DNA from: an uncultured Erysipelotrichaceae bacterium
Lineage (GTDB): Bacteria; Bacillota_I; Bacilli_A; RF39; UBA660
Reading direction: 5' to 3'
Assembly: GCA_902789425.1 (NCBI GenBank)
Contig: CADANX010000006.1
Location: forward strand, 1 to 40,624
Length of the DNA stretch: 40,624 nt
The stretch's first letter is position 1. Each line of letters starts with the position of its first letter. Below the pieces are notes generated by a model. The model saw nothing but the letters and a program-made list of their open reading frames with translations, did not search any database and was not told the DNA's origin. Made by a program: the position numbers and the translations under genes. This document shows, one piece after another, positions 29,957-32,428 of this stretch.

Positions 29957-29985
29957 AAGAAAAATAATATTATTTTATTTTTCTT
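29957..29985 (-). terminator. Terminator of the unknown membrane protein gene
   Basis: An 11-bp stem (29975-29985 with 29957-29967) and 7-base loop are followed by eight T on the minus strand. The stop codon (29970-29972) lies in the loop. Confidence 0.82.
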
Positions 29986-30791
29986 ATTTCTATTAATTTT
30001 AAATCTTTATTAAATACATAAGTAAGTTTATTATAACTATCTATATCTTTTTCATCTATTTCTTCAAGTGTAAGTGCATTATATACTTTATTATGTTTAA
30101 AAATAGCTTCTGTTGTAGTTATTTCAATATTATTATCTTCCTCTTTTACTTCAACTACATTTCTTTTAATTCTTGTTTGATTCTTTTCAATTCTTTCATT
30201 AATCATGAATGATTTAACTTTTTCAATATAACTTACTTCTTTACCATTATAATCAAAATCAACTGGCATATAATCATCAAATATTTTTTCATAAGTTTCT
30301 TTAAAAGTTTCTTCATCTACTAAAAATACATTATTATCATTTTCTATTTCTAAATTAGAAAAAGTAATATAACTTTTTAATTCCTTATTTAGATTACCTT
30401 CATAATAATCAAATAAGTATTTTGATTTATCATTAATTATTATTTTATCAAGTAAATAAGAGTATTTATTAATTAAATCTTCTTTCTTTTCTTCTTTTAT
30501 TTCTTTCTTTTGAATTTTCTTTTCTTCGATAATTGGTTTTGTAATTATATTTTTATCAAAATAATGATTAGTATATAATAAATAAAATAAATAATATATT
30601 GCACATAATAATAAAATAATAACTAAATCTCTAAATAATATTTTTTTATTTTTTTCTCTAATTAATTTTCTTGTTGTTTTATCTAGTTCTTCATTAATTT
30701 CTTTTCTTACTTGTTTATCAATATATAAATTTAATTCATCCTTTATACTATCTAAATTTATTTCTTCATTTTCTACTTTCTTATCTTTCAT
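29970..30791 (-). CDS. Membrane protein of unknown function
   Basis: 273 residues. A charged, probably helical cytosolic N-terminus (about 1-52, with KQVRKEINEELDKTTRKLIR) precedes one transmembrane helix (about 53-72, LVIILLLCAIYYLFYLLY), a Lys/Glu-rich linker (75-105) and an extracellular globular domain. The last 60 residues alternate strands (NNIEITTTEAIFKHNKVYNA, YVFNKDLKLIEIR), as in small beta-barrel sensor domains. I recognise no family. It lies just downstream of spo0A with its own promoter, so the adjacency may be meaningful but is not an operon. Confidence 0.75.
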   Translation of the reverse strand: MKDKKVENEEINLDSIKDELNLYIDKQVRKEINEELDKTTRKLIREKNKKILFRDLVIILLLCAIYYLFYLLYTNHYFDKNIITKPIIEEKKIQKKEIKEEKKEDLINKYSYLLDKIIINDKSKYLFDYYEGNLNKELKSYITFSNLEIENDNNVFLVDEETFKETYEKIFDDYMPVDFDYNGKEVSYIEKVKSFMINERIEKNQTRIKRNVVEVKEEDNNIEITTTEAIFKHNKVYNALTLEEIDEKDIDSYNKLTYVFNKDLKLIEIRKIK

Positions 30792-30854: not shown

Positions 30855-30887
30855 AATACCAAACTTCTTATTAAATTGTTTGGTATT
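30855..30887 (-). terminator. Terminator of spo0A
   Basis: A 10-bp perfect stem (30878-30887 with 30855-30864) and 13-base loop are followed by T7 on the minus strand. The 5' arm encodes the last residues and the stop (30871-30873) lies in the loop. Confidence 0.87.
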
Positions 30888-31623
30888 CGAGTTTTAATTT
30901 ATCTGCAAGTGTAACAATAAATTCGCTATTAGTTGGTTTGGCTTTATCATAATCAACACTATGTCCAAATACTTCTTCCATAAGATCAATATTACCTCTA
31001 TTCCAACTAACTTCTATAGCATGTCTTATTGCTCTTTCAACTCTTGAAACTGATGTATTAAAGTTTTCTGCTATTTCTGGATATAATTCTTTAGTTATTC
31101 CACCTATGATACTTGGATTTTTATATAAAGTAAGTATTCCATATCTAATGTATTCATATCCTTTAATGTGGGATGGAACACCTAGTTCATGAAGTAATCT
31201 AGTTAATGATATTTTAATATCAGATACATTTGATATAGATTCATCATAAGGACATGATATATCGCTAATTCTGTTTTCTAGTGTTTCAAAATCAAATGGT
31301 TTAACTAAAAAATATTTTATATTATATTTTGATAATCTTCTTATCATATCATCTGAATTAAATGATGTAATAACAATTACATTTTCATCAATTTTTTGCC
31401 TTTTTAATTCTTCAAGTATATAAAGGCCATCTTTATTTGGCATAATAAGATCTAGTAATACAACATCATACTCTCCATGTTTTTCTTTAATTAGTTTTAA
31501 ACCTTCTTCTCCGTCATGTGCTTCATACACAATTTCAAGTCTATTGTTTTTACTACTTTTTTCTCTAATTGAATTAATCAAATTAGAGTTATCATCTACT
31601 ACTAATAATCTTTGTTTTTCCAT
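30871..31623 (-). CDS. spo0A: Sporulation master regulator Spo0A
   Basis: 250 residues, full length. Receiver domain (1-120): acidic pair Asp10-Asp11, phosphoacceptor Asp58 (VVLLDLIMPNKDG), Thr86 and Lys108 (FLVKPFD), all present. Linker with CPYDES. DNA-binding domain (about 135-250) is strongly Spo0A-like: ELGVPSHIKGYEYIR, the recognition helix SRVERAIRHAIEVSWNRGN (about 193-211) and the C-terminal KAKPTNSEFIVTLADKLKLE. Phosphorylated Spo0A switches on sporulation and represses growth genes. GGGAG before ATG. It is a single-gene unit with two 0A boxes ~95-110 bases upstream. In Bacillus spo0A follows spoIVB; that gene is not here. Confidence 0.97.
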   Translation of the reverse strand: MEKQRLLVVDDNSNLINSIREKSSKNNRLEIVYEAHDGEEGLKLIKEKHGEYDVVLLDLIMPNKDGLYILEELKRQKIDENVIVITSFNSDDMIRRLSKYNIKYFLVKPFDFETLENRISDISCPYDESISNVSDIKISLTRLLHELGVPSHIKGYEYIRYGILTLYKNPSIIGGITKELYPEIAENFNTSVSRVERAIRHAIEVSWNRGNIDLMEEVFGHSVDYDKAKPTNSEFIVTLADKLKLEYQTI

Positions 31624-31657
31624 TTTTCTTTTATCTCCCTTTTTAAAAACCTTTTTG

Positions 31658-31695
31658 ATTATACTCTTTTTTAGAGCACAATACTAGAGATTATA
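31658..31695 (-). promoter_or_regulatory. spo0A promoter(s)
   Basis: Two TATAAT -10 elements lie upstream: 31690-31695 and 31658-31663. The distal one has no consensus -35, but the expected -35 position (31713-31718) overlaps the nearer 0A box, the usual arrangement of a Spo0A-activated sigma-A promoter. The nearer one also lacks a clear -35. Confidence 0.5.
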
Positions 31696-31716
31696 TTATC
31701 TAATTATCAGAGATTG

Positions 31717-31733
31717 TGTCGAAAAATGTCGAA
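31717..31733. promoter_or_regulatory. Two tandem 0A boxes (Spo0A operator)
   Basis: Exact TGTCGAA at 31717-31723 and again at 31727-31733, same orientation, 10 bp apart: one DNA turn, the spacing of a head-to-tail Spo0A dimer. They lie in the 124-bp gap between tpiA and spo0A. On spo0A's strand they read TTCGACA, centred about -37 and -47 from the start predicted for the distal -10. Confidence 0.85.
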
Positions 31734-31747
31734 ATAATTTTTATATA

Positions 31748-32428
31748 CTATAATATGTCAAGTAATTTTACAAATTCAGAGGCTTTTTGTGACATTTTTC
31801 CAACAATTATTCCATCACATGCGTTCACTATTTCATTTGTATTTTTAAGTGAAACACTTCCTCCATATATTACTTTCATATTATATTTTTCTTTAATATA
31901 TTTATATATTTCACTAATATTTTCTATTTCAAGCGAATTACCTGTTCCAATATACAATTCTGGCTCATAAGCAATTATTATATTTGAATAATCACTAATT
32001 CCCATTAAATCTTTGGATAATTCATTATCAATATACTCTTTTTCTTTAGAAAGAGATTTAAAATCACTTCCAATACATAATAATACTATTAAATCGTTTT
32101 CTAAAGCTATTTTAATTTTATTATTAATATCTTCATTAGTTTCATTAAAAAGTTTTCTTCTTTCACTATGTCCTATTATTACAGCAGAAGCACCTAATGA
32201 TTTTAATTGTTTAGCAGATACTTCACCTGTATAATCACCATCTTCATATGAAGAAACATTTTGAGCAGTTAAATTATAATTATTCGATTTAAATTTTTCT
32301 AAATAAATATTACTAGGTGCAATAAATAAATTAACATTATACTTTTTACTGTTTATAACTTTTACGTAGTTAATAGCATCATTTTCTTCAAGATTCATTT
32401 TTAAATTTGCAACAACTATTTTTTCCAC
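31748..32428 (-). CDS. tpiA: Triosephosphate isomerase, divergent
   Basis: Interconverts DHAP and glyceraldehyde-3-phosphate. 226 residues, about 25 shorter than usual. Catalytic Asn8/Lys10 (ANLKMN), His87 (IIGHSERRK) and Glu155 (AYEPELYIGTG) are present, as is YGGSVS. Divergent points: Trp of WKMN is Leu; loop-6 PVW is PEL; the phosphate-binding VGGASL is VGKMSQ. It starts within the last 13 nt of the glycosyltransferase gene. Last gene of the pgk unit. Possibly still the only isomerase, or a worn paralog. Confidence 0.9.
   Translation of the reverse strand: MEKIVVANLKMNLEENDAINYVKVINSKKYNVNLFIAPSNIYLEKFKSNNYNLTAQNVSSYEDGDYTGEVSAKQLKSLGASAVIIGHSERRKLFNETNEDINNKIKIALENDLIVLLCIGSDFKSLSKEKEYIDNELSKDLMGISDYSNIIIAYEPELYIGTGNSLEIENISEIYKYIKEKYNMKVIYGGSVSLKNTNEIVNACDGIIVGKMSQKASEFVKLLDIL

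Follow-up and report, generated by a model that had tools for sequence, protein, structure and literature searches.

Promoters of the spoIIG type are activated by Spo0A, belong to the sigma-A class and carry 0A boxes over a -35 that is poor or displaced. The spo0A gene of Bacillus subtilis has two promoters, Pv (sigma-A) and Ps (sigma-H), with the boxes 0A1-0A3 located between them and 0A4 overlapping Ps, and its boxes have been modelled as mainly repressive (PMC12090719). In the same species, Spo0A~P directly binds the comK promoter (PMC3297582).

We compared these systems with the spo0A locus in the window, which is the whole stretch of 40,624 nucleotides that was analysed. As in B. subtilis spo0A, more than one Spo0A box lies directly before spo0A, pointing to autoregulation. 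Unlike that gene, the window has a single conserved -10 (TATAAT) and its boxes are upstream of it, and direct reading of the sense strand of 31624-31747 found neither the sigma-H -35 AGGA nor the -10 GAAT expected of a Ps-type promoter. In common with spoIIG, the locus has its 0A boxes upstream of a promoter whose -35 is poor or displaced, but these boxes are predicted to be centred at about -69 and -79 and not over the -35; the relatives with a box-to--10 distance of 28 bp would fit spoIIG better. The orientation also differs, since the boxes read TTCGACA on the sense strand in the window, whereas the box nearest to the start codon is an exact TGTCGAA in 27 of 37 Bacillus-type and other named loci (L110-L149 minus the MAGs L118, L135 and L138). 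A second conserved element was found in the window's lineage and was not noticed in the Bacillus-type and other named records. The features of the locus are the following:

29970-30791, minus strand: gene after spo0A, 273-aa probable membrane protein (no Pfam match; weak NCBIfam match, far below cut-off)
30871-31623, minus strand: spo0A, 250 aa, receiver domain and Spo0A DNA-binding domain (TIGR02875, PF08769, alignment with 1lq1/1fc3)
31635-31640, minus strand: probable ribosome-binding site AGGGAG (direct reading)
31658-31663, minus strand: predicted -10 TATAAT of the conserved promoter, with a predicted start near 31651 (anchoring on the TATAAT of relatives and two-block model)
31684-31704, minus strand: second conserved element ATTAGATAATATAATCTCTAG; CTCTAG (31684-31689), at its right end, begins 26 bp ahead of the -10 and over the -35 region (20.1 of the model's 29.5 bits)
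31690-31695, minus strand: TATAAT chosen in the sequence-only reading, possible but unsupported second -10, inside the second conserved element (model score -11.6 bits)
31717-31723, plus strand: 0A box 1, exact TGTCGAA (TTCGACA on the spo0A sense strand), predicted centre -69
31727-31733, plus strand: 0A box 2, exact TGTCGAA, head-to-tail with box 1 and starting 10 bp apart from it, predicted centre -79
31748-32428, minus strand: tpiA, neighbour upstream of spo0A (PF00121, 198 bits)

The identification of the downstream gene as spo0A, made at first from the sequence alone, was borne out by the TIGR02875 match, which covers residues 3-247 with 248.1 bits against a curated cut-off of 200. PF08769 matched with 135.8 bits, the receiver domain was also recognized, and the closest solved structures are those of Spo0A (1lq1 and 1fc3). 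The recognition segment RVERAIRHAIEV is the same in the window's Spo0A and in these structures, and an alignment of 11 sequences showed that it is invariant, together with the phosphorylation-site residues D11, D58, T86 and K108. The positions, common orientation and consensus match (TGTCGAA) of the two 0A boxes were also confirmed, as was the 124-bp gap between tpiA and spo0A. An Rfam search of the window returned nothing besides 16S rRNA.

To analyse the conservation of the box, we gathered Spo0A relatives in the family, in the genus (8 of 12 genomes) and in named genome records with titles such as 'uncultured Bacilli bacterium', 'Tenericutes bacterium' and 'Erysipelotrichaceae bacterium'. 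An exact sense-strand TTCGACA occurs within 150 bp upstream of spo0A in 61 of the 83 distinct regions of the lineage (0.3 in shuffles), and the exact box in the opposite orientation occurs in one. Exact pairs 10 bp apart were found in five of these regions, and one exact box with one near box in 14. Within the genus, seven of the eight genomes have an exact box before spo0A and one (L039) has no box there; the exact pair is exclusive to the window's genome. Conservation in relatives had been set beforehand as a check that could go against the proposed autoregulatory promoter, and it was found at both levels. The boxes co-occur with spo0A, and, with a true Spo0A encoded next to them, the control of spo0A by its own product is well supported by sequence. 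Tandem duplications of spo0A were also detected (L011, L015 and L081), with the 0A-box promoter located between the copies; in L015, one copy has drifted in the receiver domain (VDNE) and in the recognition segment (ERSMRHAIEISF).

The promoter itself was analysed with a two-block model composed of the second element and the -10, trained on 29 thinned relatives with the window excluded. Of the 81,146 positions scored in the window, the highest reached 29.5 bits, with CTCTAG at 31684-31689 and TATAAT at 31658-31663, and the next-best position scored 11.8 bits, 17.7 bits lower. From this -10, which has no good -35, the boxes are 60 and 70 bp away. In the relatives the second element reads roughly AAACTAGCTAAAATTTGCTCTAGTA, and the hexamer at its end, CTCTAG or CTATAG, lies 26-27 bp upstream of the -10. 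These hexamers are exact in 20 of 74 relatives (shuffle mean 0.23) and have at most one mismatch in 39. The element was found upstream of spo0A in L008, L017, L024, L031, L072, L081, L091, L094, L099 and others; in L072 it reads ATTAGCTAATATTTACTCTAG, equal to the window's copy at 17 of 21 positions, and near-dyad copies are present in L024, L081 and L008. A strict pattern, TAGNTAANNNTNNCTCTAG, gave six matches in 58 family genomes, one of them at spo0A and the others in or near unrelated sequence, with no second regulon; since neither the copy in the window nor most of the spo0A copies match this pattern, it is weak evidence on the absence of the element elsewhere. The second element probably binds another regulator or stands in for the -35.

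The distance between the box start and the -10 was determined by anchoring each relative on its own TATAAT, chosen automatically. It is 50 or 51 bp in 37 relatives, 60 or 61 in 13, 70 in five, 27 or 28 in eight and 38 or 40 in four, counts in which the automatic choice placed the window itself in the 28 class and in which a few other choices, such as those for L085 and L018, become 61 and 70 on inspection. On the Spo0A protein tree at least 19 changes of distance class are required, an approximate number from a quick tree with several long branches; the spacing has therefore stayed in steps of roughly one turn of the helix through repeated change. At distance 50 the window has TCTCTGA instead of a box, L072 has a box at this distance ahead of its second element, and L017 has boxes at 60 and 70, comparable to the window. 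The proximal box thus seems to have disappeared from the window, where the two distal ones remain.

Taken as a whole, we regard it as likely that this region is a regulated spo0A promoter with Spo0A~P on the two 0A boxes, polymerase at the -10 (31658-31663) and positive feedback. Phosphorylated Spo0A would most likely bind as a dimer to the head-to-tail boxes, which would lie on the same helical face, about 69 and 79 bp upstream of the transcription start. The bound protein would then act on a sigma-A-type RNA polymerase at the TATAAT; as this -10 has no good -35, Spo0A may well assist the polymerase, creating a positive feedback that would commit the cell to sporulation. The other regulator, if there is one, would probably sit on 31684-31704, unless this element substitutes for the -35. 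The box, the element and the -10 spacing are conserved; the binding of Spo0A, its dependence on phosphorylation, the start site and the sign of control are what we infer. Net activation by the boxes appears reasonably probable, because a good -35 is absent and the boxes lie upstream at helical-turn steps, and repression or mixed control is the less expected outcome, somewhat unlikely in our judgement. Counted against the explanation as a whole were the distances of 60 and 70, less common than 50 among relatives, the lack of a box at 50 in the window, the boxless L039, the mainly repressive boxes of B. subtilis spo0A, and the possible single loss and the incompleteness among the comK-bearing genomes without a detected spo0A.

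The boxes could also be mainly an operator, at which Spo0A would act as a roadblock to transcription reading through from tpiA or from an upstream promoter and would damp its own level. The modelling of B. subtilis spo0A, with mainly repressive boxes and a roadblock on Pv (PMC12090719), describes such a case, and a search for a terminator-like site between tpiA and spo0A found none, although a T-rich stretch between tpiA and the box, seen by eye in many relatives, could stop read-through. In many relatives, however, the boxes lie ahead of a conserved -10 and at helical-turn steps from it, as activator sites typically do, and we consider a predominant operator role rather unlikely.

The sequence-only reading had placed the -10 at 31690-31695, which would centre the boxes at -37 and -47 as in spoIIG, and had suggested that a second promoter with TTGACA at 31756-31761 as its -35 could be overlapped and repressed by the same boxes. 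Both hexamers are present on the minus strand, the TTGACA is exact, and the resulting box-to--10 distances of 28 and 38 bp both occur in relatives. The TATAAT at 31690-31695, however, is inside the conserved element and as an anchor scores -11.6 bits against the 29.5 bits of 31658-31663, and the relatives in the distance-28 class do not have the CTCTAG element. Only with 31690-31695 would the proximal box be centred near -37; with the conserved -10 it is not. For the TTGACA, which lies in tpiA codons, the sole -10 is a weak AATTAT, leaving the second, vegetative promoter unsupported. This layout is therefore improbable, and its coordinates need to be moved to the conserved -10; 31690-31695 may still be a second start, since the 28-bp distance occurs in some relatives.

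The genome of 1,033,179 bases contains 34 exact copies of TGTCGAA, 12 on one strand and 22 on the other, and the reversed-letter control occurs 55 times. The pair at spo0A is the only one with both copies on one strand and a gap of 1 to 12 bp; from the counts on the two strands, the number of same-strand pairs expected at a distance of exactly 10 bp is about 0.0006. Within the window alone the count of two is unremarkable, as two or more copies occurred in 40 of 100 shuffles. The non-random character of the boxes rests on their spacing, location and conservation. That the boxes are a product of chance or the remnant of a lost regulon is highly improbable: shuffled windows often contain the heptamer twice, but there is one close pair in the whole genome, the box is conserved in the lineage and three further sites are conserved in the genus.

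A scan for a Spo0A regulon, proposed together with the autoregulatory promoter, was carried out by testing intergenic exact boxes across the genus, and comK and the spoIIAA/sigF-like operon held up. The comK gene was identified by PF06338 (152.8 bits), and its box is present in all eight genus genomes with spo0A, exact in six and with one mismatch in two (L041, G000:C1:45109-45115; L175-L185). The comK-bearing genomes without a detected spo0A (G038, G062 and G063) have the box in none of the three, which may share one loss of spo0A and of which two are only 66% and 81% complete. Spo0A sites are present at comK both in B. subtilis and in this genus, where the conserved box is missing if spo0A was not found; the genus has one or two consensus-like boxes, in contrast to the five degenerate sites of B. 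subtilis (PMC3297582). The spoIIAA-like gene before the SigF-like sigma factor has an exact box in five of six genomes, and spoIIGA, tested as a classical target, in four of six, with one mismatch (ATCGACA) in the window's genome. Of the 155 neighbouring genes of the same loci, used as a control, 26 are preceded by a box with one mismatch and not one by an exact box.

Two other candidate targets were rejected: ezrA, with a box in just 2-3 of the 12 genus members, and the protein downstream of the L047 box, where relatives carry TTTGACA with the look of an ordinary -35. In the spoIIA-like operon at L166:1490-2448 (minus strand), the anti-anti-sigma gene overlaps the SigF-like gene with no spoIIAB between them, and a conserved TGTCGAA is located at -63 to -67.

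Small genomes from the orders RF39 and RFN20 with a mixed loss of sporulation have been described in a survey, in which spoIIAB and spoIIE are reduced in presence or absent in RF39 (PMC10868615). The members of the lineage appear to be uncultured Bacilli of the gut and the environment, with genome sizes near 1 Mb and repeated loss of sporulation (PMC10868615). The window's genome, from a relative of Bacillus that likely belongs to RF39 (1.03 Mb in 22 contigs, 91% completeness), encodes SigK with a score over the cut-off, and SigE, SigG, SigF-like, SigH-like and SpoIIGA matches below theirs, and the organism is a probable sporulator. In four members of the same genus (G038, G062, G063 and G067), some of them incomplete, no Spo0A, SigF-like or SpoIIGA match was found, so that sporulation appears to have been lost inside a single genus.

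The regulation described here is of a kind known from B. subtilis, and the lineage and the layout are new; the literature that could be searched gave us no account of this layout or of the second element. Tentatively, and with somewhat less than even confidence, the data suggest an undescribed promoter type of this lineage, with 0A boxes stacked by whole helical turns (28 to 70 bp from the -10) and, over the -35, a second element specific to spo0A that would bind a co-regulator, heading a small Spo0A regulon (spo0A, spoIIA-like, spoIIG and comK) in genomes of roughly 1 Mb. The conservation indicates that Spo0A control of spo0A, spoIIA, spoIIG and comK outlasts strong genome reduction, and a readable regulon offers a sequence-based way to tell which members of the lineage still run sporulation. 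The series of box distances in helical turns is a natural experiment on the contact between Spo0A and polymerase. The second element, for its part, gives a lead towards a further regulator that can be tested.

An exact 0A box was also detected upstream of an AgrB-like quorum-sensing gene (L040, G000:C1:8141-8147). Additionally, many spo0A leaders of the family (for example L002, L005, L007 and L088), though not that of the window, show a conserved TGCGTGGTAGTA-like sequence just after the -10, at the predicted mRNA start.
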